Below are positions 30,961 through 64,000 of a stretch of DNA of 64,000 nucleotides, in pieces. Source of the stretch: Sarcomyxa edulis (Eukaryota > Basidiomycota > Agaricomycetes > Agaricales > Mycenaceae); the NCBI GenBank assembly GCA_009761415.1, contig QUOL01000035.1:1-64000 (forward strand). Direction: 5' to 3'. Every line of letters starts with the position of its first letter. The stretch's first letter is position 1. Made by a program: the position numbers and the translations under genes. Under the pieces are notes generated by a model, which saw only the letters and a list, made by a program, of their open reading frames with translations, did no database searches and had not been told where the DNA came from.

Positions 30961-31025
30961 TATGTTTCTTATCCGGGAATAGGGCGCCCTATTCCACTAA
31001 CCCCGAGGTCATTTCAAGGCAAAAC
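30961..31025 (+). repeat. Left-terminal module of the subtelomeric unit, 65-bp remnant
   Basis: The first subtelomere-type sequence in the window. It starts TATGTTTCTTATCC and contains the perfect 20-bp palindrome GGAATAGGGCGCCCTATTCC (30976-30995). It matches the first 65 bp of the array units at 51896 onward, then is replaced abruptly by another block. Taken as the border between gene-bearing DNA and subtelomere. Confidence 0.9.
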
Positions 31026-31660
31026 TATCCTTCTGATCCTGGAATAGGGTACCCTATTCCATCTTTTCTGGCCTAATTGGGCCTAATTTGGCAAAAAATC
31101 TGTGGAATAGGGCGTTATTTAGCCCCCTATTCCAACACACGAGTGACTTCTTGGAAAAGGGGAATTGAAATTCCCTATTCCATCAGATGTGTTCTGTCTC
31201 AAGATATGTACATTCTATATGTGCCAACTCTCACACATATAGACTCAAAACTGCACCTACACTCTATCACTCTTGTAGAAACCAATCTCTACTCCATCTA
31301 TCTTGGCTTCATATATCTGCTCATTCTCACACATATAGACTTGGTTCAACCATTTGGCTGTTGAAGTCTCAGTCTGCATACATGTTCACCGTCATATATA
31401 GTCATACAAATATAATGTCATACTACATATTACGCCTGAACAATCTGTTATGCGTCAGTAAAGTGATGCTTGGAGAACCGCTCTAGCAATTTTTATATCT
31501 GCTACATTTCAGATATATAAACTTTGTGCGACGACATTTTGATTTCACGGTGCTCTATATTGCTTTACGTACATTCAATTTTGACATGCAATGCATTGCT
31601 GCAGACTCATCAGTGTAGGACAAGTAGTTTATTCACACAACATAGCTTACATCAATTTCA
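31026..31660 (+). repeat. Repeat block R1, copy 1
   Basis: Begins TATCCTTCTGATCCT, followed by the perfect palindrome GGAATAGGGTACCCTATTCC. Further GGAATAGGG...CCCTATTCC and GGGAATTGAAATTCCC inverted repeats follow within 150 bp. Nearly the same sequence recurs at 33789. No defensible protein; AT-rich with CACACATATAGACT direct repeats. Confidence 0.9.
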
Positions 31661-31793
31661 AGAGACCTCACTACAAAGGTCCACAGAATTAAGTTGAGAG
31701 AGATAGCCGAATGGCTTGATACAAATACAAACTCTATTCAAAATCAATACACCTACTGCATTGGGCTGCCTGCAATCTGTATGCATTTCACAA

Positions 31794-32478
31794 GTTGAGC
31801 CAAGGATGGACAAACATCTACCGGATCCAACACTCGAGTGACATTTTTGACGTACAAAGGCATAGGGTCGGGACTTGAAACTGAGTGAGACCAAACGCTC
31901 CAAAGGTTCACCCAACGATGAGTCGAGTTTGACTTGTCATCTGGAACCGTCGACCATGGGAAACAAGTCGAGGAGTGAAACGGCCAAAAACGCGAGTTTG
32001 ACGACGCAGAAGAGATACAAAGACGGAACGAGCTGACGAGTCCCAGCACCAGAGTAGAAGATAGCTATCGGCCGCCGACCGCAGAGCTCGGACGTTAGGA
32101 GTTTGGCAGTTAGGTTCTCGGTAGTTAGCAGTTCGGGTTGAGGATCATAAAAAAAGAAAAGACAAGACGGGTGAGTTGAGAATGGTGGTGATCTGAACGG
32201 TGGACGTCGAGGGAACAAACGCGCGTAGGACTCTGACACTGGGATGGAGCCGTGAGACTGAAGATGGGAATCAGCCGCCAACCGCAAAGCTCGGACGTTA
32301 GGTGTTTGGCAGTTAGGGCCTCGGTAGTTAGGGTTTGAGGATCATAAAAAAAAAGAAAAAAGAAAGTGCGAGAGTCTCAGGGGAACAAACCAGCCGTCTG
32401 ACTCGGACACCGAGACGAAGCCGTGAGACTTGGGGTGGGATTGAGCCGCCGACCGCAAAGCTCGGACGTTAGGTGTTT
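31794..32478 (+). repeat. Repeat block R3, copy 1
   Basis: Starts GTTGAGCCAAGGATGG. Contains degenerate telomere-like stretches (GTTAGGAGTTTGGCAGTTAGG) and A-rich ATCATAAAAAAAAG tracts. The first ~480 bp match 33311 onward, and ~680 bp match 34698 onward. Confidence 0.85.
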
Positions 32479-33079
32479 GGCAGTTAGGCTCTCGGTAGTT
32501 AGCAGTTCGGGTTGAGGATCATAAAAAAGAAAACTAAAACAAGGGTGCGAGCGTTGTACCCAAGTGATTGCCACGATGCGAGACTCAAAAGCAAACGGGA
32601 ACGTCGATGTCAACACGGATACGTCTTTTCTTGATGCGAGACCGGGAGCGACACCCAAACGGTCTGATACAAGAGACAAGATTCCAAATTCAACGGTCGG
32701 TTTTAGTGATTGGATGCGTGTCGCGTTTGTGTAGCAAAGTCCAACTGCGAAATCTTTGAACGGTCGAATGAGTGAGCTTGTCGGCGTCTGACGGTTCGTT
32801 TTCTGGATAGAGTCAGGAAGAGAGGCCTAGGGTTGGAGTGAACGGGACAAAGATGAAGATTGGACGGTGGGTTTGCGTGCTTGAGTCGAGGGAGACGGTG
32901 AAGAACGAGCGGACACGACAGATCTGACCAGAGCTTACCGGGGAATTATATGTGGTGAATTGACGAGATATAGAGTTGCTTCAGTCGTGGGAAAGTGTCC
33001 GTGGGTGACTGGGTGACCGAAAGAATGAGTCGAGCCAACAGGAACCGATCCGAGTCTGGTGAAGGCGACTCGCTTCGAA
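32443..33079 (+). repeat. Subtelomeric filler with telomere-like tract
   Basis: A third copy of the GCCGCCGACCGCAAAGCTCGG / GTTAGG / ATCATAAAAAAG module (about 32443-32535), then about 540 bp found only once in the window. No gene seen. Confidence 0.6.
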
Positions 33080-33788
33080 GACGGTGAGAGAGACGATGCG
33101 TGTTGAGTTTCGAACATGTACGGGTTGTGGCGAGATGATTTCTAGCTCCGATGGTGTTGCGTTCACGGACAGAGATCCCTGCGTCCAAGAGGATTTGACG
33201 TGTTGCGACTTGGAGAGAAACCGGTGGTGACGAGTTGACGGCCCAAGGCAAGTTGGAAAGTGAGTGCGACGGAGGATACAGAGTTGTGACTTGAGCCTAG
33301 GCGTTGTCGAGTTGAGCCAAGGACGGACGGACATCTACCGGATCCGACGCTGACGTTCTTGACGTACAAAGGCATAGGGTCGGGACTTGAAACTGAGTGA
33401 GACCAAACGCTCCAAAGGTTCACCCAACGATGAGTCGAGTTTGACTTGTCATCTGGAACCGTCGACCATGGGAAACAAGTCGAGGAGTGAAACGGCCAAA
33501 AACGCGAGTTTGACGACGCAGAAGAGATACAAAGACGGAACGAGCTGACGAGTCCCAGCACCAGAGTAGAAGATAGCTATCGGCCGCCGACCGCAGAGCT
33601 CGGACGTTAGGAGTTTGGCAGTTAGGTTCTCGGTAGTTAGCAGTTCGGGTTGAGGATCATAAAAAAAGAAAAGACAAGACGGGTGAGTTGAGAATGGTGG
33701 TGATCTGAACGGTGGACGTCGAGGGAACAAACGCGCGTAGGACTCTGACACTGGGATGGAGCCGTGAGACTGAAGATGGGAATCAGCC
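33080..33788 (+). repeat. Repeat block R2+R3, copy a
   Basis: 709 bp that recur at 34467-35175 with the same internal order (offset 1387 bp). The right end is cut off at AATCAGCC by the start of R1 copy 2. Confidence 0.9.
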
Positions 33789-34466
33789 TATCCTTCTGAT
33801 CCTGGAATAGGGTACCCTATTCCATCTTTTTTGGCCTAATTGGGCCTAATTTGGCAAAAAATCTGTGGAATAGGGCTTTATTTAGCCCCCTATTCCAACA
33901 CACGAGTGATTTCTTGGAAAAGGGGAATTGAAATTCCCTATTCCATCAGATGTGTTCTGTCTCAAGATATGTACATTCTATATCTGCCAACTCTCACACA
34001 TATAGACTCAAAACTGCACCTACACTGTATCACTCTTGTAGAAACCAATCTCTACTCCATCTCTCTTGGCTTCATATATCTGCTCAGTCTCACACATATA
34101 GACTTGGTTCAACCACCTGACTGTTTGAGTCTCAGTCTGCATACATGTTCACCGTCATATATAGTCGTACAAATATAATCTCATATCCCATATTACGCCT
34201 GCACAATCTGTTATGCGTCAGTAAAGTGATGCTTGGAGAACCGCTCTAGCAATTTTTATATCTGCTACATTTCAGACATATAAACTTTGTGTGACGACAT
34301 CTTGATTTCACGGTGCTCTATCTTACTTTACGTACCTTCAGTTCCAACATGTAATGCCAGTTCATTGTCATATGCATTGCTACAAAGACGCTCACAAAAA
34401 CACCGTCGCCAGCACCAGTGTAGGAAAAGGAGTTCATTCATACAACATAGCTGACATCAATTTCAA
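33789..34466 (+). repeat. Repeat block R1, copy 2
   Basis: Starts at the same base as copy 1 (31026) although the left neighbour differs. Diverges from copy 1 by scattered substitutions and by a ~50-bp difference near its right end. Confidence 0.9.
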
Positions 34467-35377
34467 GACGGTGAGAGAGACGATGCGTGTTGAGTTTCGA
34501 ACATGTACGGGTTGTGGCGAGATGATTTCTAGCTCCGATGGTGTTGCGTTCACGGACAGAGATCCCTGCGTCCAAGAGGATTTGACGTGTTGCGACTTGG
34601 AGAGAAACCGGTGGTGACGAGTTGACGGCCCAAGGCAAGTTGGAAAGTGAGTGCGACGGAGGATACAGAGTTGTGACTTGAGCCTAGGCGTTGTCGAGTT
34701 GAGCCAAGGACGGACGGACATCTACCGGATCCGACGCTGACGTTCTTGACGTACAAAGGCATAGGGTCGGGACTTGAAACTGAGTGAGACCAAACGCTCC
34801 AAAGGTTCACCCAACGATGAGTCGAGTTTGACTTGTCATCTGGAACCGTCGACCATGGGAAACAAGTCGAGGAGTGAAACGGCCAAAAACGCGAGTTTGA
34901 CGACGCAGAAGAGATACAAAGACGGAACGAGCTGACGAGTCCCAGCACCAGAGTAGAAGATAGCTATCGGCCGCCGACCGCAGAGCTCGGACGTTAGGAG
35001 TTTGGCAGTTAGGTTCTCGGTAGTTAGCAGTTCGGGTTGAGGATCATAAAAAAAGAAAAGACAAGACGGGTGAGTTGAGAATGGTGGTGATCTGAACGGT
35101 GGACGTCGAGGGAACAAACGCGCGTAGGACTCTGACACTGGGATGGAGCCGTGAGACTGAAGATGGGAATCAGCCGCCAACCGCAAAGCTCGGACGTTAG
35201 GCGTTTGGCAGTTAGGGCCTCGGTAGTTAGGGTTTGAGGATCATAAAAAAAAAGAAAAAAGAAAGTGCGAGAGTCTCAGGGGAACAAACCAGCCGTCTGA
35301 CTCGGACACCGAGACGAAGCCGTGAGACGTGGGGTGGGATTGAGCCGCCGACCGCAAAGCTCGGACGTTAGGTGTTT
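34467..35377 (+). repeat. Repeat block R2+R3, copy b
   Basis: Matches copy a for 709 bp and then continues like R3 copy 1 to the GGACGTTAGGTGTTT tract, where it ends at the next block. Confidence 0.9.
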
Positions 35378-36315
35378 AATGGGTGGGAAATTTGACAATG
35401 CCCCATTGTCCGGCTTGGAAAGTTTCAAGCTACGCCTGGCTACGCCCGTATGCAATATGTCAAAAAAGTTATACCGTCATGAGCGTATGCTTCTTGGCTT
35501 CCGGAAAATGCAAAAATCTGATGTGTATGTGTTTGCCTTTGTTTGGTTTCAGCCACAAACATCCAGAGGTGTCAGAAATCTGATTTGGCTGAAAGAACAG
35601 GCTACGCCTGGGTACGCCTTGCTATATACCCACTTTTTTTAAAATGAGGGTTGGCGTACATGGTCAGGTGACCCGTCCCAAGAGTCCATTCATAAAAATA
35701 TATAAGGCGTAGCCTATACCCGCCTATTTAACTTTGGCCAGAATGCCGAAGTTGTATCTAAGCGTAGGGCGCGGGTATCCGTCCAAATCCTTAGGTTTCT
35801 TTTGAAATACTAGCGTATATGTCCAGAGCTGACTACCGCAGAGTTTGGAAATTTTTTTGTGTATATACCTCTGCGCCATTGCCAGTTTACACCCAAATTC
35901 CTATTTTCCACCCATTATATAGCTACGCCAGCACCTGTATAGTGTGCGCCAACCTTGAAACTTTGGGAATATAGTTCTAATATGCATACGCCTACCCTCA
36001 AAAAATTTCATGACCATCGGTCCAGCCAATGAACCTGCAGGAATATTTGGCTTGAATTAATAAGCATTTAACAGCATTATAATTGCATTATCCGTATAAG
36101 ACCAGTTTCAAAGTACAGATTTCAAGAAAAAAACCTTGTTATGAAATGTCATGATTCCGGTCATGATGGTATATGCACATTCCAAAATATTCCCACGGTC
36201 AAGTTTTCAATATTAGCAGTCAGTGTTATTATAATCAGAGTTTACTCTGATTATGCACAAAGACTAGGATTAAGCCTTCAGACAAGAAATCGGAATTAGC
36301 CGCTAACCGCGAAAC
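35378..36315 (+). repeat. Single-copy AT-rich subtelomeric block
   Basis: Seen once in the window. Rich in TACGCC motifs (GGCTACGCC, GGTACGCC, CATACGCC) and ends in a degenerate GGAATTAGCCGCTAACCGCG resembling the end of other units. No coding potential recognised; perhaps another unit family or an old transposon. Confidence 0.5.
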
Positions 36316-36751
36316 TATGTTTCTTATCCGGGAATAGGGCGCCCTATTCCACTAACCCCGAGGTCATTTCAAGGCAAAACGGACGAAAAAGGTGACGGAA
36401 TAGGGCGTTCAGTCACGAAATGTCACGGAATAGGGTGTTTTGTGACGGAATAGGGCGTTCGGTCACGGAATAGGGCGTCCTGTGACGGAATAGGGCGTTC
36501 TTTGACACAACAGTAGGAGCCAGAGCATTTTCCAAATAAGACACTGGCTTGTTATTTGGAACGTCCAAGAATGCAAAAGCGAGTACCAAGACGTGTCTGA
36601 GAGAAAAGTAAAAAATCATGGATCAAAGAGGGAACCATCGAAGTGGAGAAGACGTCAACCATACACCAAGACCAAAGTGAACGGTCAAAGCATCAGTTGC
36701 GACAAAAACGAAAAACCAACTCTGAGAGGCAAGACAAGAAGGCAATCAACC
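36316..36751 (+). repeat. Short-form array unit, truncated at 436 bp
   Basis: Has the same left end as the 1.45-kb array units. It lacks a 117-bp internal segment that every array unit carries as a second, diverged copy of the preceding ~115 bp. It therefore looks like the form before that internal duplication. Cut off at AATCAACC, where the helicase unit begins. Confidence 0.85.
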
Positions 36752-36765
36752 TACTCTAATTAGGG

Positions 36766-36791
36766 GAGGAGACGGGGGGGCCCGTCTCCTC
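36766..36791 (+). repeat. Terminal hairpin of helicase unit, copy 1
   Basis: GAGGAGACGGG, four G, CCCGTCTCCTC: perfect 11-bp arms 14 bp from the unit's left end. Confidence 0.9.
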
Positions 36792-37559
36792 GACCCGATG
36801 CTTGGCAAAATCTGAACAGGCAGAAAGTTGGCTTGGGGTCTCAGGACCTCCCACCCGAAACCGTTTGCCCAAGCCCGTCCGTTCCAGCTCGCAGAAGGCA
36901 AAACGGTCAAAATCCAAGCCAGGCATCGGGAGCGGCTTCGGAAAAGCGATCCAAACAAAATTTCGACTTCACCACTGCATTCGTAGCGGTCAAAAACCTT
37001 GGTAAACTATGTGGGACCGTCCAGGCATACCTTTTTATGCCGTGAAAAGCCTGCAGACAAAGCCAATTCAGGCTACTACTTGTCAGGGCAGGCTTGGCCT
37101 GATTTTTATAGGCTTGGGGAGGCTTGTAGGCTCAGATTCAAGGTGTAAGGTCCCTTTGACCGTACCCCAAAGGATTAAGCTAGCCCGCTTCAACCAAGCT
37201 TGCAAAGGGCCTGTTTGTGTTTGAGTGGCACAGGAACTTCCAGGAGAGACTGAAACAAAGTTGTGCAACAGATACTAAAGCATGTATGCATCAATATACA
37301 GGTTTCTACTGTACTTCTAGAAGACAGGAAATATGTTTTCAAGCATCTCAGATAGAATTCACATATGTGGTGCTTGCCTCCCATTCCAGTGGTGTTAGGC
37401 TTGAAAGTATTACACTGAAGTTAGGTAATTGATTCAATTTGAAGAGATAAAATCACAACATATTTATTGGAGTTAGGATATGTATAGCTGTACATTGAAT
37501 TCTTGGATTTTGGATGGTAAAGTTACAACTGGATGAGACTTGATACAGGGATTATTGAA

Positions 37560-37588
37560 CCAAACAAAACTTTTAAAGTTTTGTTTGG
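37560..37588 (+). repeat. Perfect 14-bp-arm palindrome, copy 1
   Basis: CCAAACAAAACTTT, one T, AAAGTTTTGTTTGG. In copy 2 of the unit (44569-44597) only the central base differs. Related to the palindromes of the satellite that follows. Confidence 0.95.
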
Positions 37589-37670
37589 CTCTGGTCTGAC
37601 AAGTTCTGAAAGACATCACATGTGACTATGGCCCAGACTCTGATCAGTGCCTAGTGATGGTGCCTGTAAG

Positions 37671-38688
37671 CCAAACAATACTTTGAAAGTATAGTTTGGT
37701 CTCCCTGTGATGTCTTACAAAATAAGGTGGCAGTGCTGCTCTAAAGTAATCTGTGCCCCCTTTTTTTGAAACAGATCAGATATAGACCAAATCACATGGT
37801 TGAAATTCCCAATATCTCATAGATGGTGCCTGTAAGCCAAACAATACTTCAAAAGTATAGTTTGGGCTCCCTGTAGTGTCTAATAAATATGTTGAAATGA
37901 GGTGGCAGTGTTGCTTTGAAGTAATTTGTGCCTCTAGACTAAATATAGACTAAATCACATGGTTGAACTTATAAATATCTCATAAATGGTGCCTGTGAGC
38001 CAAACAATACTTTGAAAGTATAGTTTGGCTACTGACTGACAGTTGTAACTGAGGTGGCAGTGCTGTTGTGAAATAATCTGTGCCCCCCTTTTTTGAAACA
38101 GATCAGATATGAACCAAATCACATGGTTGAATTTGTAGATATCTCATAAATGGTGCCTGTAAGCCAAACAATACTTTGAAAGTATAGTTTGGTCTCCCTG
38201 TGATGTCTTAGAAAGTAAGGTGGCAGTGCTGCTCCAAAGTAATCTGTGCCCCCCTTTTTTGAAACAGGTCAAATATAGACTAAATCACATGGTTGAACTT
38301 ATAAATATCCAATAGATTGTACCTGTAAGCCAAACAATACTTTGAAAGTATAGTTTGGCTACTGACTGACAGTTGTAACTGAGGTGGCAGTGCTGTTGTG
38401 AAATAATCTGTGCCCCCCTTTTTTGAAACAGATCAGATATGAACCAAATCACATGGTTGAATTTGTAGATATCTCATAAATGGTGCCTGTAAGCCAAACA
38501 ATACTTTGAAAGTATAGTTTGGTCTCCCTGTGATGTCTTAGAAAGTAAGGTGGCAGTGCTGCTCCAAAGTAATCTGTGCCCCCCTTTTTTGAAACAGGTC
38601 AAATATAGACCAAATCACATGGTTAGACCTGTGGATATCTCATAAATGGTGCCTGTGAGCCAAACAATACTTTGAAAGTATAGTTTGT
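37671..38688 (+). repeat. Palindrome-bearing ~165-bp satellite, seven units, copy 1
   Basis: CCAAACAATACTTT starts at 37671, 37837, 38000, 38163, 38330, 38494 and 38660, i.e. 163-167 bp apart. Each forms a near-perfect 29-bp palindrome with AAAGTATAGTTTGG. Between them lie conserved GGTGGCAGTG, GTAATCTGTGCCCCC and CAAATCACATGGTT segments. Ends about 190 bp before the first helicase exon, so it may include promoter or binding-site arrays. Confidence 0.92.
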
Positions 38689-38876
38689 TCCATCATAAAT
38701 AATTTTAAGGTTTAATTAAAATAGATATGATCACCTGAGATTAATGAATCAAAACAAGTCAAATTTCTCTTTTTCATCTTCTTTTCCATCATCATCAAAC
38801 TTTCACCTAATACTTCTAGATTCAGATCAAAAAGAATAAGGACTATGTAGGTCTATTATGTGAGTCTTTTTGTTAG

Positions 38877-41800
38877 GAGACTAACAATCTTCATCAAATA
38901 AGGCCTGCTTGTTCCATTTGTGGAACCAATGTATCCACTGGACAATATGCAATGTCTACTCATAATATTTCTTATCATTTAGAAAAATATGGTCTAATTG
39001 CAGATGGTAAAAAATCTTTGACTGATTTGTTATTAATGACTGACTGGTACATCTCTATAGATAATTCTTTCATCTTATCACGGCCTAGTCCAGATGGAAA
39101 CATTGCTTGTCCATTTTTGCCTTGCGATACAACATTCTCAAATACTAGGGGTCTTATCAATCATATCAAGAAATGGCATAACGTCAAAACGGCACAGATT
39201 AAAAGTGATCCTATGGTCATCAGAAATATGCATATGTCTGATGATCTCACTGTCAATCAAATGGATATCTATACACCAACAGCACCAGCTATACCAGATG
39301 TCACAAATACAGGTCCAAATCGTCAACGCAGCGACCATAACATCAGTGAAAGACACCACCCATATTCCCGGCCAACCACTACTTCTCCCGCAGTTGTTAA
39401 GCAATCAGCACCTTTGATTACAGTGGAACCAACCTTTTGTAAGCAAGATTTCTTGGTGATGAAGTATATTATGAAATTTAATTTCTGTTTATAGCTCAAT
39501 CTTTAAACGGTCGTCGCTGTTATCTTCTTACATCGACAATTCTGGCCTTATTTTCTCTGCGGATTCACAGCATATTCAAAACAATACACTGCATGATATG
39601 TGGAACAGCATGGATTCCCAACAGTCTCTTGGGTCATTTAAAAAGTCATGGACTTGTTCTGACTTTGGAACAAGTTAATGAACTGCAATTGGAAATCACA
39701 CGGAATCAAGTCTGCGAAACATCTGACATCACACCTCCTGTTCCTGGTGGACCACCAGTCGAAGGCTTGTCAATTACGCACAATGGGCATTGCTGTCAGC
39801 ATTGCAGTTATTGCAGTCCAAAGTTCAGTTCCTTCAAAAAACATTGGGGCCACAAACATCACGACCAAAAAATTCCGGCCCGCGATGCTTTTGAGCATGG
39901 CGACATTCAAACTTTCTTCTCTCCATCTCCACAGCGTTGGTTCAAAGTAAACCCCTCATTGTGCTGTCAGCCGCTCATCGACCCCTTTGCAATCTACGTG
40001 CAAAAACATCTTCCGACTTTGTCACATTCATCGATTATTGCTCCGGCCACACACGCACGTGAACTTCCTCCACTGTTACAAGTCACGGGTTGGCATCTCC
40101 ATCTTCAGGAATACATCACCGATAAAGACAAGGTTGAAGGATTGCGAAGGTTAATGACTCTGCCATCATTGCGGAATTCACCACCATCTCTTATGAAGTT
40201 GAAGGAATTTGTATTTCAATACATGGTGATTGTACGCGACAATGCTAGACAATCAGCTATTGGAATTAAACGTCTTTTGATGGAATGTCCCAGGTATGCT
40301 TCAAAAACACTTGTTTGCTTAAAGTTGATTGAACACATTCATTCTCACAGAAATTCCAGCAACCATGAACATTGGCGCGTTCACTCCGATGATGTAACTT
40401 TGAAAACATACGGCACTCTCCTGATTCAATTTCTCCATGCAATGCTTTTGACCCTTCAAAAGGATCCACCCACAGACTACCAGTTCCCCCTCAATCCCAC
40501 TCAAGTACAAAATGGACTTATGTTACTGGATATTCTCAATGACGGTGAAGGAGATGCTATCGAAGCCATTCATCAATTTTCGTTATGCTTTTTGGCTCCC
40601 CGTGATCTTGCCGGTAATATGGAAAACTATTCTAAATGGGAGGATCCCTTGGAATGTTTGGTTGCCATTTATTGTCTCAATGATGATGGAAACTTCAAGC
40701 GCCCACATGAAGTTACCCAATTGTTTGCCAAATTGAAATACTTCATTCGTGGTGCAACATTGTTGGAAGGAATACGCTATAAGGATCAGTATGACAATGA
40801 CATTTACAAGTGAGTTCAAGTTTTTGTACTGTTAATGAGAGTTAGGGCTCACATTTCTTTTAGATCTGTTGAAGCTCAAGGCATGCACATGTTGCGTTTA
40901 GGCATGCTTTCACCTTACAATACGGTCACGGAATATCAAAGTTACGCTTCATCGCTGGCACTCAACACCACTTCTGTTCCTGCTACCCGTGTATCCGCTG
41001 ATGGATCCCAAATCAGCTACAAAGAGCATACACTACATGTTCCAAAGTGGATTGACGGTCTTCATCAACTTGCCGATGAACTGGAGGCAAACATCGACAG
41101 TTTGTTACGACACCAAATCATTCCAATGGATATTCCAAACGACATAGCTGACGATTGGACGATCGAAACACGCGGCTACAGTTGGATTCATAATGGAACA
41201 TTTCTTGCATCGGAGCGGCCTCTAATCAAGATTCTATTTGAAGACGAGACATTGAAACTGGCACAGGTCGATCGCAACAACGAATTGGTTTTTAACACTG
41301 CGGCAATGCATAAAGTCATGGAACATGCTGCTGAAATTAACCGACAACTTGCTCTGTTCACCTTCACATCACCTGGCCAAGATCCACGAAGTTCAGAGTT
41401 TGCCGATCACAAAATCCAAAACTCCACTCGTCCTCGAACCGTGTTCCGTAGCAATGGAGATATTTGGTTGGTCACCCGTCGAGTCAAAACTGAAAACATG
41501 ATACGTCGGGATGTCTTCATTCCAATCAAGGCTCACCCTAGATTGGCTCGGATTCTGGAAGTTTACCTCCTCATTGTTCGACCTATGGAACGAGATTTTG
41601 CTAGAATCCTGTGGGGTGAAGAAATTGGCCAGTTATATGATGAATACCTGTGGGTTAGGATGGGCAAAAGGGTCGGAGAAGATCAGTTTAGCAGCGACTT
41701 AGAGGATTTTACAGGATCTCACTGTGGTGCCGCAGTCAGCGTCAGACCATATCGTCAACTCACGGTTCAGATTGCACGGACATATCTTGGCTCAGAATAT

Positions 41801-51895: not shown

Positions 51896-53347
51896 TATGT
51901 TTCTTATCCGGGAATAGGGCGCCCTATTCCACTAACCCCGAGGTCATTTCAAGGCAAAACGGACGAAAAAGGTGACGGAATAGGGCGTTCAGTCACGGAA
52001 TGTCACGGAATAGGGTGTTTTGTGACGGAATAGGGCGTTCGGTCACGGAATAGGGCGTCCTGTGACGGAATAGGGCGTTCTCTGACACAACAGTAGGAGC
52101 CAGAGCATTTTCCAAATAAGACACTGGCTTGTTATTTGGAACATCCAAGAATGCAAAAGCGAGTACCAAGACGTGTCTGAGAGAGACAAGTAAAAATCAG
52201 GGATCAAAGAGGGAACCAGAGCATTTTTCAAATAAGACACTGGCTTGTTATTTGGAAACATCAAAAAACGCAAAAGCGAGTGACAAGACGTGTCTGAGAG
52301 AAAAGTAAAAAATCATGGATCAAAGAGGGAACCATCGAAGTGGAGAAGACGTCAACCATACACCAAGACCAAAGTGAACGGTCAAAGCATCAGTTGCGAC
52401 AAAAACGAAAAACCAACTCTGAGAGGCAAGACAAGAAGGCAATCAACCTTCAGCCGTGCAACCCCAAGATCGAGATGAAGTGTATGCATCAGAGACGCAA
52501 AAATATGAGATCAAAGAGGGAACCATCGAAGTGGACAGACCGATACAAGACAAAGAACGGTCAAAACGCAAGTGAAACAGGGATGAAGCCGTTAGACCCG
52601 TAATCGGAATCAGCCGCTACCCCCCCAGCTGGGACGTTAGGGTTGGGGTAGTTAGGCGGTTAGGGTTAGTGTTAGGCGTTAGGGTTAGTGTTAGGTGTTA
52701 GGGTTGAGGATCATATAAAAAAAAAGTGCGAGTTAGTATCAGAGTCAGAGTGTCAGTGTCAGTGTCAGTGCAGACATCAACTCACATACAAAATCAAGAT
52801 AGTCAGACAGTCAGTCAAGTGAGCAACCGACCTATCTCAAACAAGTCAACGAGCGACCGTTTCAAAAATAAAATGTGCATCACAATCAATTGTGGATCAA
52901 GTCAACAGAGTCAGTCAGACCCACATTCCAAATAAGATGACGCCCCACTATTTGAAACTGAGTCACCAACACCAGTCACCAACACCAAGTCTAAGATGAA
53001 TTGTGGATCAAGTCAACATAGTCAGACTCACATTCCAAATAAGACGACATCCCACTATTTGAAACCGAGTCACCAACACCAAGTCTGATGCAAGAACACT
53101 TAGGGTTACAATGTTTCAAATAAGATGACACTCCACTATTTGGAGCCATCGACACCAAGTGAGTCCAAACTAACCCCGAGTAACCCCGTGTGACCCCGAG
53201 TTCAAACGACATGGAAATAACCCCGTGTAACCCCGAGCTCAAACAGCACAGAAATAACCCCGAGTAACCCCGGGCTCATTTACGACAAACGACAAGGAAA
53301 CAACTCCAAGCTACCCCAGCGTCACGCTATGAGAAGCGACCGGATCA
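51896..53347 (+). repeat. Subtelomeric array unit 1 (1452 bp)
   Basis: Reference unit. In order: left-terminal module with palindrome GGAATAGGGCGCCCTATTCC (51911-51930); about six copies of a TGACGGAATAGGGCGTTC-type element; two hairpins TTCCAAATAA...TTATTTGG (about 52112 and 52227) in a 117-bp internal duplication; a GTTAGGG-like tract (52636-52708); AAAAAAAAAGTGCGAG; a GTCAGTGTCAGTGTCAGTG microsatellite; three more CAAATAAG...TATTTG hairpins (about 52928, 53035, 53117); then TAACCCC-type motifs (about 53172-53275). Short open frames in every unit are not credible genes. Confidence 0.95.
52636..52708 (+). repeat. Degenerate telomere-like TTAGGG tract in array unit
   Basis: GTTAGGGTTGGGGTAGTTAGG, then GGTTAGGGTTAGTGTTAGGC, then further TTAGGGTTAG units. 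It recurs in all units long enough to contain it. G-strand on + indicates the chromosome end lies to the right. Confidence 0.85.
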
Positions 53348-54799
53348 TATGTTTCTTATCCGGGAATAGGGCGCCCTATTCCACTAACCCCGAGGTCATT
53401 TCAAGGCAAAACGGACGAAAAAGGTGACGGAATAGGGCGTTCAGTCACGGAATGTCACGGAATAGGGTGTTTTGTGACGGAATAGGGCGTTCGGTCACGG
53501 AATAGGGCGTCCTGTGACGGAATAGGGCGTTCTCTGACACAACAGTAGGAGCCAGAGCATTTTCCAAATAAGACACTGGCTTGTTATTTGGAACATCCAA
53601 GAATGCAAAAGCGAGTACCAAGACGTGTCTGAGAGAGACAAGTAAAAATCAGGGATCAAAGAGGGAACCAGAGCATTTTTCAAATAAGACACTGGCTTGT
53701 TATTTGGAAACATCAAAAAACGCAAAAGCGAGTGACAAGACGTGTCTGAGAGAAAAGTAAAAAATCATGGATCAAAGAGGGAACCATCGAAGTGGAGAAG
53801 ACGTCAACCATACACCAAGACCAAAGTGAACGGTCAAAGCATCAGTTGCGACAAAAACGAAAAACCAACTCTGAGAGGCAAGACAAGAAGGCAATCAACC
53901 TTCAGCCGTGCAACCCCAAGATCGAGATGAAGTGTATGCATCAGAGACGCAAAAATATGAGATCAAAGAGGGAACCATCGAAGTGGACAGACCGATACAA
54001 GACAAAGAACGGTCAAAACGCAAGTGAAACAGGGATGAAGCCGTTAGACCCGTAATCGGAATCAGCCGCTACCCCCCCAGCTGGGACGTTAGGGTTGGGG
54101 TAGTTAGGCGGTTAGGGTTAGTGTTAGGCGTTAGGGTTAGTGTTAGGTGTTAGGGTTGAGGATCATATAAAAAAAAAGTGCGAGTTAGTATCAGAGTCAG
54201 AGTGTCAGTGTCAGTGTCAGTGCAGACATCAACTCACATACAAAATCAAGATAGTCAGACAGTCAGTCAAGTGAGCAACCGACCTATCTCAAACAAGTCA
54301 ACGAGCGACCGTTTCAAAAATAAAATGTGCATCACAATCAATTGTGGATCAAGTCAACAGAGTCAGTCAGACCCACATTCCAAATAAGATGACGCCCCAC
54401 TATTTGAAACTGAGTCACCAACACCAGTCACCAACACCAAGTCTAAGATGAATTGTGGATCAAGTCAACATAGTCAGACTCACATTCCAAATAAGACGAC
54501 ATCCCACTATTTGAAACCGAGTCACCAACACCAAGTCTGATGCAAGAACACTTAGGGTTACAATGTTTCAAATAAGATGACACTCCACTATTTGGAGCCA
54601 TCGACACCAAGTGAGTCCAAACTAACCCCGAGTAACCCCGTGTGACCCCGAGTTCAAACGACATGGAAATAACCCCGTGTAACCCCGAGCTCAAACAGCA
54701 CAGAAATAACCCCGAGTAACCCCGGGCTCATTTACGACAAACGACAAGGAAACAACTCCAAGCTACCCCAGCGTCACGCTATGAGAAGCGACCGGATCA
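53348..54799 (+). repeat. Subtelomeric array unit 2 (1452 bp)
   Basis: Full-length unit, essentially identical to unit 1. Right end CGACCGGATCA, as in unit 1. Confidence 0.95.
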
Positions 54800-55735
54800 T
54801 ATGTTTCTTATCCGGGAATAGGGCGCCCTATTCCACTAACCCCGAGGTCATTTCAAGGCAAAACGGACGAAAAAGGTGACGGAATAGGGCGTTCAGTCAC
54901 GGAATGTCACGGAATAGGGTGTTTTGTGACGGAATAGGGCGTTCGGTCACGGAATAGGGCGTCCTGTGACGGAATAGGGCGTTCTCTGACACAACAGTAG
55001 GAGCCAGAGCATTTTCCAAATAAGACACTGGCTTGTTATTTGGAACATCCAAGAATGCAAAAGCGAGTACCAAGACGTGTCTGAGAGAGACAAGTAAAAA
55101 TCAGGGATCAAAGAGGGAACCAGAGCATTTTTCAAATAAGACACTGGCTTGTTATTTGGAAACATCAAAAAACGCAAAAGCGAGTGACAAGACGTGTCTG
55201 AGAGAAAAGTAAAAAATCATGGATCAAAGAGGGAACCATCGAAGTGGAGAAGACGTCAACCATACACCAAGACCAAAGTGAACGGTCAAAGCATCAGTTG
55301 CGACAAAAACGAAAAACCAACTCTGAGAGGCAAGACAAGAAGGCAATCAACCTTCAGCCGTGCAACCCCAAGATCGAGATGAAGTGTATGCATCAGAGAC
55401 GCAAAAATATGAGATCAAAGAGGGAACCATCGAAGTGGACAGACCGATACAAGACAAAGAACGGTCAAAACGCAAGTGAAACAGGGATGAAGCCGTTAGA
55501 CCCGTAATCGGAATCAGCCGCTACCCCCCAGCTGGGACGTTAGGGTTGGGGTAGTTAGGCGGTTAGGGTTAGTGTTAGGCGTTAGGGTTAGTGTTAGGTG
55601 TTAGGGTTGAGGATCATATAAAAAAAAAGTGCGAGTTAGTATCAGAGTCAGAGTGTCAGTGTCAGTGTCAGTGCAGACATCAACTCACATACAAAATCAA
55701 GATAGTCAGACAGTCAGTCAAGTGAGCAACCGACC
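54800..55735 (+). repeat. Subtelomeric array unit 3, truncated (936 bp)
   Basis: Stops at GAGCAACCGACC, where full units continue TATCTCAAAC; the next unit begins there with TATGTTTC. The truncation removes the distal hairpins and TAACCCC motifs. Confidence 0.95.
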
Positions 55736-57187
55736 TATGTTTCTTATCCGGGAATAGGGCGCCCTATTCCACTAACCCCGAGGTCATTTCAAGGCAAAAC
55801 GGACGAAAAAGGTGACGGAATAGGGCGTTCAGTCACGGAATGTCACGGAATAGGGTGTTTTGTGACGGAATAGGGCGTTCGGTCACGGAATAGGGCGTCC
55901 TGTGACGGAATAGGGCGTTCTCTGACACAACAGTAGGAGCCAGAGCATTTTCCAAATAAGACACTGGCTTGTTATTTGGAACATCCAAGAATGCAAAAGC
56001 GAGTACCAAGACGTGTCTGAGAGAGACAAGTAAAAATCAGGGATCAAAGAGGGAACCAGAGCATTTTTCAAATAAGACACTGGCTTGTTATTTGGAAACA
56101 TCAAAAAACGCAAAAGCGAGTGACAAGACGTGTCTGAGAGAAAAGTAAAAAATCATGGATCAAAGAGGGAACCATCGAAGTGGAGAAGACGTCAACCATA
56201 CACCAAGACCAAAGTGAACGGTCAAAGCATCAGTTGCGACAAAAACGAAAAACCAACTCTGAGAGGCAAGACAAGAAGGCAATCAACCTTCAGCCGTGCA
56301 ACCCCAAGATCGAGATGAAGTGTATGCATCAGAGACGCAAAAATATGAGATCAAAGAGGGAACCATCGAAGTGGACAGACCGATACAAGACAAAGAACGG
56401 TCAAAACGCAAGTGAAACAGGGATGAAGCCGTTAGACCCGTAATCGGAATCAGCCGCTACCCCCCCAGCTGGGACGTTAGGGTTGGGGTAGTTAGGCGGT
56501 TAGGGTTAGTGTTAGGCGTTAGGGTTAGTGTTAGGTGTTAGGGTTGAGGATCATATAAAAAAAAAGTGCGAGTTAGTATCAGAGTCAGAGTGTCAGTGTC
56601 AGTGTCAGTGCAGACATCAACTCACATACAAAATCAAGATAGTCAGACAGTCAGTCAAGTGAGCAACCGACCTATCTCAAACAAGTCAACGAGCGACCGT
56701 TTCAAAAATAAAATGTGCATCACAATCAATTGTGGATCAAGTCAACAGAGTCAGTCAGACCCACATTCCAAATAAGATGACGCCCCACTATTTGAAACTG
56801 AGTCACCAACACCAGTCACCAACACCAAGTCTAAGATGAATTGTGGATCAAGTCAACATAGTCAGACTCACATTCCAAATAAGACGACATCCCACTATTT
56901 GAAACCGAGTCACCAACACCAAGTCTGATGCAAGAACACTTAGGGTTACAATGTTTCAAATAAGATGACACTCCACTATTTGGAGCCATCGACACCAAGT
57001 GAGTCCAAACTAACCCCGAGTAACCCCGTGTGACCCCGAGTTCAAACGACATGGAAATAACCCCGTGTAACCCCGAGCTCAAACAGCACAGAAATAACCC
57101 CGAGTAACCCCGGGCTCATTTACGACAAACGACAAGGAAACAACTCCAAGCTACCCCAGCGTCACGCTATGAGAAGCGACCGGATCA
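55736..57187 (+). repeat. Subtelomeric array unit 4 (1452 bp)
   Basis: Full-length unit; first of the second 1452/1450/937 trimer. Confidence 0.95.
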
Positions 57188-58637
57188 TATGTTTCTTATC
57201 CGGGAATAGGGCGCCCTATTCCACTAACCCCGAGGTCATTTCAAGGCAAAACGGACGAAAAAGGTGACGGAATAGGGCGTTCAGTCACGGAATGTCACGG
57301 AATAGGGTGTTTTGTGACGGAATAGGGCGTTCGGTCACGGAATAGGGCGTCCTGTGACGGAATAGGGCGTTCTCTGACACAACAGTAGGAGCCAGAGCAT
57401 TTTCCAAATAAGACACTGGCTTGTTATTTGGAACATCCAAGAATGCAAAAGCGAGTACCAAGACGTGTCTGAGAGAGACAAGTAAAAATCAGGGATCAAA
57501 GAGGGAACCAGAGCATTTTTCAAATAAGACACTGGCTTGTTATTTGGAAACATCAAAAAACGCAAAAGCGAGTGACAAGACGTGTCTGAGAGAAAAGTAA
57601 AAAATCATGGATCAAAGAGGGAACCATCGAAGTGGAGAAGACGTCAACCATACACCAAGACCAAAGTGAACGGTCAAAGCATCAGTTGCGACAAAAACGA
57701 AAAACCAACTCTGAGAGGCAAGACAAGAAGGCAATCAACCTTCAGCCGTGCAACCCCAAGATCGAGATGAAGTGTATGCATCAGAGACGCAAAAATATGA
57801 GATCAAAGAGGGAACCATCGAAGTGGACAGACCGATACAAGACAAAGAACGGTCAAAACGCAAGTGAAACAGGGATGAAGCCGTTAGACCCGTAATCGGA
57901 ATCAGCCGCTACCCCCCCAGCTGGGACGTTAGGGTTGGGGTAGTTAGGCGGTTAGGGTTAGTGTTAGGCGTTAGGGTTAGTGTTAGGTGTTAGGGTTGAG
58001 GATCATATAAAAAAAAAGTGCGAGTTAGTATCAGAGTCAGAGTGTCAGTGTCAGTGTCAGTGCAGACATCAACTCACATACAAAATCAAGATAGTCAGAC
58101 AGTCAGTCAAGTGAGCAACCGACCTATCTCAAACAAGTCAACGAGCGACCGTTTCAAAAATAAAATGTGCATCACAATCAATTGTGGATCAAGTCAACAG
58201 AGTCAGTCAGACCCACATTCCAAATAAGATGACGCCCCACTATTTGAAACTGAGTCACCAACACCAGTCACCAACACCAAGTCTAAGATGAATTGTGGAT
58301 CAAGTCAACATAGTCAGACTCACATTCCAAATAAGACGACATCCCACTATTTGAAACCGAGTCACCAACACCAAGTCTGATGCAAGAACACTTAGGGTTA
58401 CAATGTTTCAAATAAGATGACACTCCACTATTTGGAGCCATCGACACCAAGTGAGTCCAAACTAACCCCGAGTAACCCCGTGTGACCCCGAGTTCAAACG
58501 ACATGGAAATAACCCCGTGTAACCCGAGCTCAAACAGCACAGAAATAACCCCGAGTAACCCCGGCTCATTTACGACAAACGACAAGGAAACAACTCCAAG
58601 CTACCCCAGCGTCACGCTATGAGAAGCGACCGGATCA
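57188..58637 (+). repeat. Subtelomeric array unit 5 (1450 bp)
   Basis: Full-length unit lacking one C in TAACCCCGAGC and one G in CCCCGGGCTC near its right end. Confidence 0.95.
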
Positions 58638-59574
58638 TATGTTTCTTATCCGGGAATAGGGCGCCCTATTCCACTAACCCCGAGGTCATTTCAAGGCAAA
58701 ACGGACGAAAAAGGTGACGGAATAGGGCGTTCAGTCACGGAATGTCACGGAATAGGGTGTTTTGTGACGGAATAGGGCGTTCGGTCACGGAATAGGGCGT
58801 CCTGTGACGGAATAGGGCGTTCTCTGACACAACAGTAGGAGCCAGAGCATTTTCCAAATAAGACACTGGCTTGTTATTTGGAACATCCAAGAATGCAAAA
58901 GCGAGTACCAAGACGTGTCTGAGAGAGACAAGTAAAAATCAGGGATCAAAGAGGGAACCAGAGCATTTTTCAAATAAGACACTGGCTTGTTATTTGGAAA
59001 CATCAAAAAACGCAAAAGCGAGTGACAAGACGTGTCTGAGAGAAAAGTAAAAAATCATGGATCAAAGAGGGAACCATCGAAGTGGAGAAGACGTCAACCA
59101 TACACCAAGACCAAAGTGAACGGTCAAAGCATCAGTTGCGACAAAAACGAAAAACCAACTCTGAGAGGCAAGACAAGAAGGCAATCAACCTTCAGCCGTG
59201 CAACCCCAAGATCGAGATGAAGTGTATGCATCAGAGACGCAAAAATATGAGATCAAAGAGGGAACCATCGAAGTGGACAGACCGATACAAGACAAAGAAC
59301 GGTCAAAACGCAAGTGAAACAGGGATGAAGCCGTTAGACCCGTAATCGGAATCAGCCGCTACCCCCCCAGCTGGGACGTTAGGGTTGGGGTAGTTAGGCG
59401 GTTAGGGTTAGTGTTAGGCGTTAGGGTTAGTGTTAGGTGTTAGGGTTGAGGATCATATAAAAAAAAAGTGCGAGTTAGTATCAGAGTCAGAGTGTCAGTG
59501 TCAGTGTCAGTGCAGACATCAACTCACATACAAAATCAAGATAGTCAGACAGTCAGTCAAGTGAGCAACCGACC
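58638..59574 (+). repeat. Subtelomeric array unit 6, truncated (937 bp)
   Basis: Same truncation point as unit 3; the 1-bp difference is a 7-C versus 6-C run near CCAGCTGGGACG. Confidence 0.95.
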
Positions 59575-61026
59575 TATGTTTCTTATCCGGGAATAGGGCG
59601 CCCTATTCCACTAACCCCGAGGTCATTTCAAGGCAAAACGGACGAAAAAGGTGACGGAATAGGGCGTTCAGTCACGGAATGTCACGGAATAGGGTGTTTT
59701 GTGACGGAATAGGGCGTTCGGTCACGGAATAGGGCGTCCTGTGACGGAATAGGGCGTTCTCTGACACAACAGTAGGAGCCAGAGCATTTTCCAAATAAGA
59801 CACTGGCTTGTTATTTGGAACATCCAAGAATGCAAAAGCGAGTACCAAGACGTGTCTGAGAGAGACAAGTAAAAATCAGGGATCAAAGAGGGAACCAGAG
59901 CATTTTTCAAATAAGACACTGGCTTGTTATTTGGAAACATCAAAAAACGCAAAAGCGAGTGACAAGACGTGTCTGAGAGAAAAGTAAAAAATCATGGATC
60001 AAAGAGGGAACCATCGAAGTGGAGAAGACGTCAACCATACACCAAGACCAAAGTGAACGGTCAAAGCATCAGTTGCGACAAAAACGAAAAACCAACTCTG
60101 AGAGGCAAGACAAGAAGGCAATCAACCTTCAGCCGTGCAACCCCAAGATCGAGATGAAGTGTATGCATCAGAGACGCAAAAATATGAGATCAAAGAGGGA
60201 ACCATCGAAGTGGACAGACCGATACAAGACAAAGAACGGTCAAAACGCAAGTGAAACAGGGATGAAGCCGTTAGACCCGTAATCGGAATCAGCCGCTACC
60301 CCCCCAGCTGGGACGTTAGGGTTGGGGTAGTTAGGCGGTTAGGGTTAGTGTTAGGCGTTAGGGTTAGTGTTAGGTGTTAGGGTTGAGGATCATATAAAAA
60401 AAAAGTGCGAGTTAGTATCAGAGTCAGAGTGTCAGTGTCAGTGTCAGTGCAGACATCAACTCACATACAAAATCAAGATAGTCAGACAGTCAGTCAAGTG
60501 AGCAACCGACCTATCTCAAACAAGTCAACGAGCGACCGTTTCAAAAATAAAATGTGCATCACAATCAATTGTGGATCAAGTCAACAGAGTCAGTCAGACC
60601 CACATTCCAAATAAGATGACGCCCCACTATTTGAAACTGAGTCACCAACACCAGTCACCAACACCAAGTCTAAGATGAATTGTGGATCAAGTCAACATAG
60701 TCAGACTCACATTCCAAATAAGACGACATCCCACTATTTGAAACCGAGTCACCAACACCAAGTCTGATGCAAGAACACTTAGGGTTACAATGTTTCAAAT
60801 AAGATGACACTCCACTATTTGGAGCCATCGACACCAAGTGAGTCCAAACTAACCCCGAGTAACCCCGTGTGACCCCGAGTTCAAACGACATGGAAATAAC
60901 CCCGTGTAACCCCGAGCTCAAACAGCACAGAAATAACCCCGAGTAACCCCGGGCTCATTTACGACAAACGACAAGGAAACAACTCCAAGCTACCCCAGCG
61001 TCACGCTATGAGAAGCGACCGGATCA
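59575..61026 (+). repeat. Subtelomeric array unit 7 (1452 bp)
   Basis: Full-length unit; first of the third group. Confidence 0.95.
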
Positions 61027-62363
61027 TATGTTTCTTATCCGGGAATAGGGCGCCCTATTCCACTAACCCCGAGGTCATTTCAAGGCAAAACGGACGAAAA
61101 AGGTGACGGAATAGGGCGTTCAGTCACGGAATGTCACGGAATAGGGTGTTTTGTGACGGAATAGGGCGTTCGGTCACGGAATAGGGCGTCCTGTGACGGA
61201 ATAGGGCGTTCTCTGACACAACAGTAGGAGCCAGAGCATTTTCCAAATAAGACACTGGCTTGTTATTTGGAACATCCAAGAATGCAAAAGCGAGTACCAA
61301 GACGTGTCTGAGAGAGACAAGTAAAAATCAGGGATCAAAGAGGGAACCAGAGCATTTTTCAAATAAGACACTGGCTTGTTATTTGGAAACATCAAAAAAC
61401 GCAAAAGCGAGTGACAAGACGTGTCTGAGAGAAAAGTAAAAAATCATGGATCAAAGAGGGAACCATCGAAGTGGAGAAGACGTCAACCATACACCAAGAC
61501 CAAAGTGAACGGTCAAAGCATCAGTTGCGACAAAAACGAAAAACCAACTCTGAGAGGCAAGACAAGAAGGCAATCAACCTTCAGCCGTGCAACCCCAAGA
61601 TCGAGATGAAGTGTATGCATCAGAGACGCAAAAATATGAGATCAAAGAGGGAACCATCGAAGTGGACAGACCGATACAAGACAAAGAACGGTCAAAACGC
61701 AAGTGAAACAGGGATGAAGCCGTTAGACCCGTAATCGGAATCAGCCGCTACCCCCCAGCTGGGACGTTAGGGTTGGGGTAGTTAGGCGGTTAGGGTTAGT
61801 GTTAGGCGTTAGGGTTAGTGTTAGGTGTTAGGGTTGAGGATCATATAAAAAAAAAGTGCGAGTTAGTATCAGAGTCAGAGTGTCAGTGTCAGTGTCAGTG
61901 CAGACATCAACTCACATACAAAATCAAGATAGTCAGACAGTCAGTCAAGTGAGCAACCGACCTATCTCAAACAAGTCAACGAGCGACCGTTTCAAAAATA
62001 AAATGTGCATCACAATCAATTGTGGATCAAGTCAACAGAGTCAGTCAGACCCACATTCCAAATAAGATGACGCCCCACTATTTGAAACTGAGTCACCAAC
62101 ACCAGTCACCAACACCAAGTCTAAGATGAATTGTGGATCAAGTCAACATAGTCAGACTCACATTCCAAATAAGACGACATCCCACTATTTGAAACCGAGT
62201 CACCAACACCAAGTCTGATGCAAGAACACTTAGGGTTACAATGTTTCAAATAAGATGACACTCCACTATTTGGAGCCATCGACACCAAGTGAGTCCAAAC
62301 TAACCCCGAGTAACCCCGTGTGACCCCGAGTTCAAACGACATGGAAATAACCCCGTGTAACCC
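61027..62363 (+). repeat. Subtelomeric array unit 8, truncated (1337 bp)
   Basis: Ends at AACCCCGTGTAACCC, a second and different truncation point, where full units continue CGAGCTC. Confidence 0.95.
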
Positions 62364-63701
62364 TATGTTTCTTATCCGGGAATAGGGCGCCCTATTCCAC
62401 TAACCCCGAGGTCATTTCAAGGCAAAACGGACGAAAAAGGTGACGGAATAGGGCGTTCAGTCACGGAATGTCACGGAATAGGGTGTTTTGTGACGGAATA
62501 GGGCGTTCGGTCACGGAATAGGGCGTCCTGTGACGGAATAGGGCGTTCTCTGACACAACAGTAGGAGCCAGAGCATTTTCCAAATAAGACACTGGCTTGT
62601 TATTTGGAACATCCAAGAATGCAAAAGCGAGTACCAAGACGTGTCTGAGAGAGACAAGTAAAAATCAGGGATCAAAGAGGGAACCAGAGCATTTTTCAAA
62701 TAAGACACTGGCTTGTTATTTGGAAACATCAAAAAACGCAAAAGCGAGTGACAAGACGTGTCTGAGAGAAAAGTAAAAAATCATGGATCAAAGAGGGAAC
62801 CATCGAAGTGGAGAAGACGTCAACCATACACCAAGACCAAAGTGAACGGTCAAAGCATCAGTTGCGACAAAAACGAAAAACCAACTCTGAGAGGCAAGAC
62901 AAGAAGGCAATCAACCTTCAGCCGTGCAACCCCAAGATCGAGATGAAGTGTATGCATCAGAGACGCAAAAATATGAGATCAAAGAGGGAACCATCGAAGT
63001 GGACAGACCGATACAAGACAAAGAACGGTCAAAACGCAAGTGAAACAGGGATGAAGCCGTTAGACCCGTAATCGGAATCAGCCGCTACCCCCCCAGCTGG
63101 GACGTTAGGGTTGGGGTAGTTAGGCGGTTAGGGTTAGTGTTAGGCGTTAGGGTTAGTGTTAGGTGTTAGGGTTGAGGATCATATAAAAAAAAAGTGCGAG
63201 TTAGTATCAGAGTCAGAGTGTCAGTGTCAGTGTCAGTGCAGACATCAACTCACATACAAAATCAAGATAGTCAGACAGTCAGTCAAGTGAGCAACCGACC
63301 TATCTCAAACAAGTCAACGAGCGACCGTTTCAAAAATAAAATGTGCATCACAATCAATTGTGGATCAAGTCAACAGAGTCAGTCAGACCCACATTCCAAA
63401 TAAGATGACGCCCCACTATTTGAAACTGAGTCACCAACACCAGTCACCAACACCAAGTCTAAGATGAATTGTGGATCAAGTCAACATAGTCAGACTCACA
63501 TTCCAAATAAGACGACATCCCACTATTTGAAACCGAGTCACCAACACCAAGTCTGATGCAAGAACACTTAGGGTTACAATGTTTCAAATAAGATGACACT
63601 CCACTATTTGGAGCCATCGACACCAAGTGAGTCCAAACTAACCCCGAGTAACCCCGTGTGACCCCGAGTTCAAACGACATGGAAATAACCCCGTGTAACC
63701 C
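62364..63701 (+). repeat. Subtelomeric array unit 9, truncated (1338 bp)
   Basis: Same right end as unit 8; 1 bp longer in the C run. Confidence 0.95.
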
Positions 63702-64000
63702 TATGTTTCTTATCCGGGAATAGGGCGCCCTATTCCACTAACCCCGAGGTCATTTCAAGGCAAAACGGACGAAAAAGGTGACGGAATAGGGCGTTCAGTC
63801 ACGGAATGTCACGGAATAGGGTGTTTTGTGACGGAATAGGGCGTTCGGTCACGGAATAGGGCGTCCTGTGACGGAATAGGGCGTTCTCTGACACAACAGT
63901 AGGAGCCAGAGCATTTTCCAAATAAGACACTGGCTTGTTATTTGGAACATCCAAGAATGCAAAAGCGAGTACCAAGACGTGTCTGAGAGAGACAAGTAAA
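63702..64000 (+). repeat. Subtelomeric array unit 10, runs off the window
   Basis: First 299 bp of a further unit. The array continues beyond the window. Confidence 0.95.

Follow-up and report, generated by a model that had tools for sequence, protein, structure and literature searches.

The first 64 kb of contig C29 (QUOL01000035.1) of the Sarcomyxa edulis genome (35.6 Mb, 40 contigs), hereafter the window, carries from position 30961 onwards an array of elements in one orientation, which belong to three families that we called A, B and C (Table 1). Family B carries a gene for a telomere-linked helicase (TLH), and no gene of this kind was seen in families A and C. An earlier note on this DNA had described twelve units of a single family beginning at the same base and ending raggedly, and had proposed their attachment to an eroding chromosome end. 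These units are our family A, and its start, TATGTTTCTTATCC, is present without mismatch at all twelve places, on the forward strand only (one mismatch being allowed, 0.02 sites expected from shuffling). The fixed start thus stands, but the single-family picture does not, as the neighbours at 31026 and 33789 (family C, start C/TATCCTTCTGATCC, where the slash marks the joint) and at 36752 and 43761 (family B, start CC/TACTCTAATTAGGG) have the same layout. In the three families this usually consists of C or CC, followed by TA and about 12 further bases (a tag of 13-14 bases), with a hairpin that begins 14-15 bases in. The hairpin is a perfect palindrome of 20 bp in family A and of 22 bp in family C, and an 11-bp stem with a 4-base loop in family B. 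Scanning the window for this layout gave 11 matches on the forward strand, each an element start, and none on the reverse strand; the five of the 16 window starts that were missed are preceded by A instead of C.

The left neighbours of family A in the window, of which at least five had been reported, are six: AGCTCC, CGAAAC, AAAGTC, GGATCA (five times), CGACC (twice) and AACCC (twice). The reported right-end lengths were also recovered, when each A start is measured to whichever family start follows it (65, 436, 936/937, 1337/1338 and 1450/1452 bp); counted to the next A start only, 65 and 436 turn into 5,355 and 15,580. The sequence to the left of the 30961 joint (2 kb tested) finds no counterpart in the rest of the window or among the fetched loci, save for a 30-bp inverted repeat within itself.

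Genome-wide, 260 A starts, 32 B starts and 26 C starts were found, including one further A start on C29, at 86115-86129. On the other contigs the listed starts of A (100 of 260, and all 80 that are not preceded by C), B and C are all outward-facing and near contig ends. We then counted distinct junctions, i.e. distinct joints among the fetched loci of this genome, merging flanks within 3 mismatches of 20. They number 38 in A (39 when a later 61-bp stretch is included), 24 in B and 10 in C, in total 72, which supports units attached through a constant terminus and ending raggedly on the distal side. A C precedes the start in 37 of 38 A, 24 of 24 B and 10 of 10 C junctions, and in B it is CC in all 24, CC making up 5.4% of the dinucleotides of the window. 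Over all copies in the genome, the preceding base is C in 32 B starts and another base in none, and C in 180, A in 79 and T in one of the A starts.

For part of the junctions (the 39 of A being used here) the left neighbour is also present uncut elsewhere in the fetched loci. Its commonest uncut form has C at the position of the joint in 22/26 cases for A and 8/8 for C, and CC in 12/12 for B; therefore, the C or CC is part of both target and donor. The next base of the uncut target is T in 10/12 cases for B, 9/26 for A and 2/8 for C, and for B the core common to target and donor is mostly CC-T. Three left neighbours are each joined to two families, two of them to A and B and one to A and C (GAGCAACCGACC, AATAGGGCGCCC, CGCTACCCCCCC), as if these were preferred places of cutting, or as if the start of one family had replaced that of the other. 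A BLAST search for mid-unit beginnings among pieces of the three families returned 81 segments, of which 43 begin at base 1-2; the other 38, judged by eye rather than singly, may be splits at internal repeats, divergent A-like stretches within C elements, stretches of telomere repeat and a single noisy contig tip. One ancestral array reshaped by unequal crossing-over alone, which the earlier note had named as a possible refutation, was rejected in view of the 72 distinct junctions, the doubly used left neighbours and the unmatched flank at 30961.

The hairpin of family B was examined for covariation in 21 of 25 B starts (10 distinct sequences, nine stem pairs, 500 shuffles). The 13-base tag is invariant among these starts while the stem varies, and 94.4% of the cells of the nine pairs are paired. 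Six pairs are altered on both sides (2/500 shuffles as high), as are 17 cells, where no slid version of the stem exceeds 6, and the covariation score was reached by none of the 500 shuffles, so that the B stems covary. When folded as single-stranded DNA, the one B start and the one C start of the window that were tested gave strong folding energies.

The TLH of family B has Pfam matches to OrsD (E 3e-8), DEAD and Helicase_C, and it belongs to the TLH family as a RecQ-type helicase gene near telomeres with OrsD, a domain also present in many of its relatives, one of which is named tlh2-like. The named proteins among its seven closest matches are from Infundibulicybe, Gymnopilus, Pleurotus and Mycena, and its dN/dS (ratio of nonsynonymous to synonymous substitution rates) is 0.05. 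Exon 3 encodes a further domain, and its 14 strong copies in the genome are near contig ends and all point outward. The catalytic set of integrases is R, K, HxxR, H and Y. In the exon 3 domain R-K-R-H-Y is retained in 114 of 116 fungal relatives, and its predicted fold is of the integrase type, with XerH, Cre and XerD at the top of the structural list obtained with VIA-align (XerH and Cre closest). Both features are those of the tyrosine-recombinase fold, and we predict that TLH contains a tyrosine-recombinase domain. The recombinase piece has no match in NCBIfam, and among the Pfam matches up to E 1 of four TLH open reading frames the Crypton domains GCR1_C and DUF3504 are absent. The open-access literature, to which our search was confined (preprints and subscription journals were not covered), gave no paper linking TLH to a recombinase.

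Other relatives of this protein were also seen. Two weak (25%) relatives of the recombinase, at C30:3253-4071 and C30:44390-45208, are possibly a separate recombinase gene family. Several relatives of about 840-960 residues (P0019, P0024, P0026, P0037 and others) have the recombinase region, often with OrsD, and no helicase in precomputed Pfam annotation, and in these the helicase-recombinase fusion may be split or truncated. A scan of viral contigs gave six loci that match only residues 1114-1470, in the helicase part, at 24-28% identity, and these were set aside.

The distal ends of the elements are cut at many points. The shortest stubs have 14 bases and stop at the base of the hairpin (C7:715835-716025, L019), and near position 1652 of C40 (L079) the 14 bases of a B tag are followed by one extra base; a 29-base stub stopping in the middle of the palindrome is also found among the stubs of these two loci. 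The earlier note had placed the telomere to the right from TTAGGG-like tracts of the window. Real telomere arrays, found at C12 and C20 and, by their inner edge, on C13, C15 and C18, support this orientation, although the tracts in the window are degenerate and lie within A units. Telomere repeats cap broken sequence of several kinds: a TLH exon (C12), an A unit (C20, C15) and other sequence (C13, C18). A degenerate TTAGGG/TTAGTG tract occurs at 52637-52705 and at the same place in other A units, and on C15 the terminal telomere starts at a tract of this kind. At L040 (C20) a short interstitial (GGGTTA)n array separates an A stub of about 80 bp from other sequence, which looks like an end that was first capped and afterwards extended. 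A telomerase RNA-binding domain was found on C34, so that telomerase likely operates in this genome.

We consider it likely, with moderate confidence, that these are chromosome-end elements with one start layout that are cut and joined to the ends by the TLH of family B. Attachment by DNA recombination is likelier than RNA copying, because one of the families encodes a predicted recombinase and helicase. When a tyrosine recombinase cuts DNA, it leaves a 3'-phosphotyrosyl on the cut strand and a free 5' hydroxyl. In the proposed mechanism, a chromosome end would be exposed or partly unwound and made single-stranded by the helicase part of TLH. Cleavage of the outward-running strand by the recombinase part would follow C (A and C) or CC, mostly before T (B), with loss of the distal piece. 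A donor element, identified through its tag and hairpin, would have its free start joined to the cut, the target strand being linked to the 5' hydroxyl of a donor itself cut at CC/TA. The joint would keep the C or CC of the target, followed by the constant TA start, and all distal sequence would be replaced. The donor could be another chromosome end, bringing along everything distal to the hairpin, or an excised copy, and the joint would be the same either way. Telomerase would cap the resulting end, and the next joining would cut inside the last element, leaving a stub with a ragged distal end, while identical stubs within arrays would stem from later duplication of blocks. Families A and C would be passengers moved in trans by TLH. 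We infer the enzyme activity, the single-stranded intermediate, the form of the donor and the order of events. More tentatively, fungal TLHs in general might be the transposases of an unrecognised class of hairpin-tagged DNA elements that join themselves to chromosome ends at CC-T, in which case fungi would possess, beside telomerase, a means of lengthening and rearranging their chromosome ends without RNA.

Several observations weigh against this proposal. The cut-and-join chemistry is attributed to TLH by inference. TLH relatives of other fungi were compared as proteins, and the junction rule was read in this genome. Within it the rule is broken by the 79 A starts preceded by A and the one preceded by T, and by the joint at 34461/34462, where family C sequence meets ACGGTGAGAG, which is also present at about 33074. 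When the layout scan is run without the C rule, the C palindromes of the window are matched from the opposite strand, and other sequence is matched on several fetched contig tips, where a few of the matches had the C as well; the layout, which also occurs by chance, is by itself no proof. A primer pairing over 3 bases, or end-joining at a 3-base microhomology, would equally explain the preference for CC-T. As to the hairpins, further pair types in the B stem are not above shuffles (198/500 as high), the A hairpin does not exceed shuffles in stability (z -0.93), and folding is poor in one B variant (z 0.49). The tags of A and C differ from that of B, and their mobilisation by TLH is an assumption. 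As to the recombinase, Foldseek alone gave no significant match (the best, E 0.96, being the protelomerase TelK, one of the telomere resolvases, which close chromosome ends as hairpins at a palindrome), and VIA-align realigned only Foldseek's own candidates. In the model the residues 311-341, which hold H and Y, have a pLDDT (predicted local distance difference test) below 50, and the H of the HxxR motif is not retained, position 895 being S, A, G, R and others.

The strongest of the alternatives, which we regard as unlikely though deserving of some weight, is that only homologous and microhomology recombination is at work, an ancestral joint having been followed by break-induced replication, unequal crossing-over and end-joining that spread and shortened the units, with TLH as a passenger or a recombination helper, as in yeast Y'. 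The near-identical blocks of the window (99.6% over 7,013 bp, 99.9% over 6,632 bp) point in this direction, and so does the joint at 34461/34462, which lies away from any element start and has AAGACGG on both sides, suggesting microhomology or a deletion. The three left neighbours common to two families could also result from recombination between arrays. Furthermore, the fullest A end runs into GAT(C or T)A/TATG in all 25 readable copies (overlapping loci may be counted twice), i.e. it shows one junction. Because of this, we treated the 79 A-preceded starts among the 260 as a single tandem junction multiplied by duplication, which presumably holds also for the copies that could not be read and bears out the suggestion that identical truncation points come from duplicated blocks. 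In contrast, events at microhomologies would begin at varied points of the donor, whereas in 72 distinct junctions, with three different starts, the element side is cut at the same base, and three families that differ in sequence have the same layout. That the arrays are remodelled by homologous recombination is certain, but alone it leaves the fixed start unexplained.

The mechanism suggested by the earlier note, that of HeT-A/TART, is opposed by the sequence. HeT-A, TART and Coprina are telomere-attached retroelements, and HeT-A and TART are copied from their own mRNA and attached by the 3' end. Of the traits of telomeric retrotransposons, the fixed proximal and ragged distal ends are present here, while a reverse transcriptase (RT) and a centromere-ward sense strand are not: none of the 111 listed RVT_1 matches of the genome is on C29, in line with the earlier note, which had seen no RT, and none was found among the Pfam matches of the four TLH open reading frames. 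The outward orientation of the TLH genes (14/14 exons), together with the absence of an RT match on C29, is therefore evidence against a HeT-A-like mechanism, and the recombinase domain adds to it. A variant of this idea is attachment in trans, by an RT of telomeric non-LTR (long terminal repeat) or Penelope-like type extending a 3' end in C or CC from an RNA that ends in the complement of the fixed start, the hairpin acting as an RNA structure comparable to the 3' fold of Terminons. We find it rather improbable. The fixed proximal terminus, the ragged distal end and the head-to-tail arrays fit it, the 111 RVT_1 matches could supply the enzyme, the target preference would be explained by base pairing between C/CC/CCT and the 3' end of the RNA, and Terminons, in the part of the report available, are described as attaching through a structured 3' end (PMC6431247). 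However, a template antisense to the TLH gene would be required, and the recombinase domain would be left without a role; in addition, the Rfam search of 30900-64000 found neither a hammerhead nor any other known fold, the sole result being nine copies of one match (E 0.72) far below the cut-off.

Helitrons are known by a CTRR terminus, an A/T target (cut between A and T) and a hairpin near the 3' end as Rep signal. A rolling-circle (HUH) process, with a Helitron-type Rep acting in trans to join the element to a chromosomal 3' OH and the hairpin about 13 bases from the end as its signal, would fit the 33 Helitron_like_N matches of the genome and the hairpin near a fixed end beside a short target preference, but is very improbable, as there is no such match on C29 or in the TLH open reading frames, the termini are without CTRR and the A/T target, and many Helitron matches lie inside contigs while all listed A, B and C starts are near contig ends.

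Returning to the proposed joining by TLH, integrons and CTX phage recombine folded single strands, and like the system proposed here they combine a tyrosine recombinase, a hairpin-borne site and exchange of one strand; integron cassettes and CTX phage are, however, bacterial and circular and are inserted inside the chromosome, whereas here joining is at the chromosome end. In the Crypton group both ends are defined and bear short direct repeats, the intermediate is circular and the location is internal to the chromosome. Crypton and Starship are likewise DNA elements with a tyrosine recombinase and no RT, but CryptonS, in the text available, has 5-6-bp terminal direct repeats, whereas here there is only one fixed end, all placed starts lie close to contig ends and the recombinase is fused to a RecQ helicase. 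Yeast Y' are likewise subtelomeric helicase repeats, which spread by homologous recombination and, in contrast to the elements here, are not known to have a recombinase domain or a fixed hairpin start; their amplification upon loss of telomere replication is reported (PMC4522978, consulted in part). MoTeR, FoTeR and Terminons, according to the excerpts available, are, like HeT-A/TART and Coprina, also end-attached with truncated copies, and Terminons form head-to-tail arrays; these telomeric retroelements have RT, and FoTeRs and Terminons join telomere repeats, whereas here the units have no RT, the joints are at C/CC and the gene points outward.

The closest relatives are the fungal TLH repeats (Ustilago UTASa, Magnaporthe TLH, Fusarium TLHcr, Agaricus bisporus var. 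burnettii RecQ), which are likewise RecQ-type, multicopy, telomere-adjacent and in many copies truncated. Reports of TLH genes at the ends of fungal chromosomes go back to at least 1998, and in the portions of this literature accessible to us a role in telomere maintenance is only suggested, and no recombinase domain, fixed hairpin start or attachment rule is described, in contrast to what is present here (further comparison literature, available in part: PMC7473861, PMC3212892, PMC10799480, PMC8381367, PMC12857005, PMC3627910, PMC7593156). The conserved recombinase domain and the precise joining rule make the role of TLH a testable mechanism. If the proposal is true, the elements would be a DNA-only counterpart of telomeric retrotransposons and a site-specific engine of subtelomere turnover, and the induction of TLH genes in telomerase-negative Ustilago survivors, as given in the accessible part of PMC10532341, would get a direct reading.

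Table 1. Elements and TLH features of the window (64 kb, positions of the forward strand)
Feature	Position	Strand	Remarks
Family A stub, 65 bp	30961-31025	+	left joint AAGCTCC/TATG to sequence without other match in the window or the fetched loci
Family C element	31026-33788	+	hairpin 31040-31061
Family C element	33789-36315	+	hairpin 33803-33824; MITE-like insert and one rule-breaking joint inside
Family A unit, cut at 436 bp	36316-36751	+	hairpin 36331-36350
Family B element, first copy	36752-43760	+	hairpin 36766-36791
TLH exons, first copy	38952-39438, 39495-40809, 40864-42822, 42879-43760	+	3' end of gene cut off
Predicted tyrosine-recombinase-like domain, first TLH copy	40865-42064	+	100% identical to second copy
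Family B element, second copy	43761-51895	+	hairpin 43775-43800; 99.6% identity to first over 7,013 bp
TLH exons, second copy	45961-46447, 46504-47818, 47873-49831, 49888-51577	+	5' gene start tentative
Predicted tyrosine-recombinase-like domain, second TLH copy	47874-49073	+	spliced residues 602-1001; R776, K809, R898, H929, Y938
Family A unit, 1452 bp	51896-53347	+	GGATCA at its end, before next start
Family A unit, 1452 bp	53348-54799	+	
Family A unit, cut at 936 bp	54800-55735	+	CGACC/TATG
Family A unit, 1452 bp	55736-57187	+	
Family A unit, 1450 bp	57188-58637	+	
Family A unit, cut at 937 bp	58638-59574	+	
Family A unit, 1452 bp	59575-61026	+	
Family A unit, cut at 1337 bp	61027-62363	+	TAACCC/TATG
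Family A unit, cut at 1338 bp	62364-63701	+	
Family A unit, continues beyond window	63702-64000	+	

The second family C element holds, at 35377-35919, an insert resembling a miniature inverted-repeat transposable element (MITE), with the matching terminal inverted repeats TAATGGGTGGGAAA and TTTCCACCCATTATA. Proximal to the arrays the window is an ordinary gene region, with an F-box-like gene at 12062-12961 and an ABC-transporter exon at 15881-16381.

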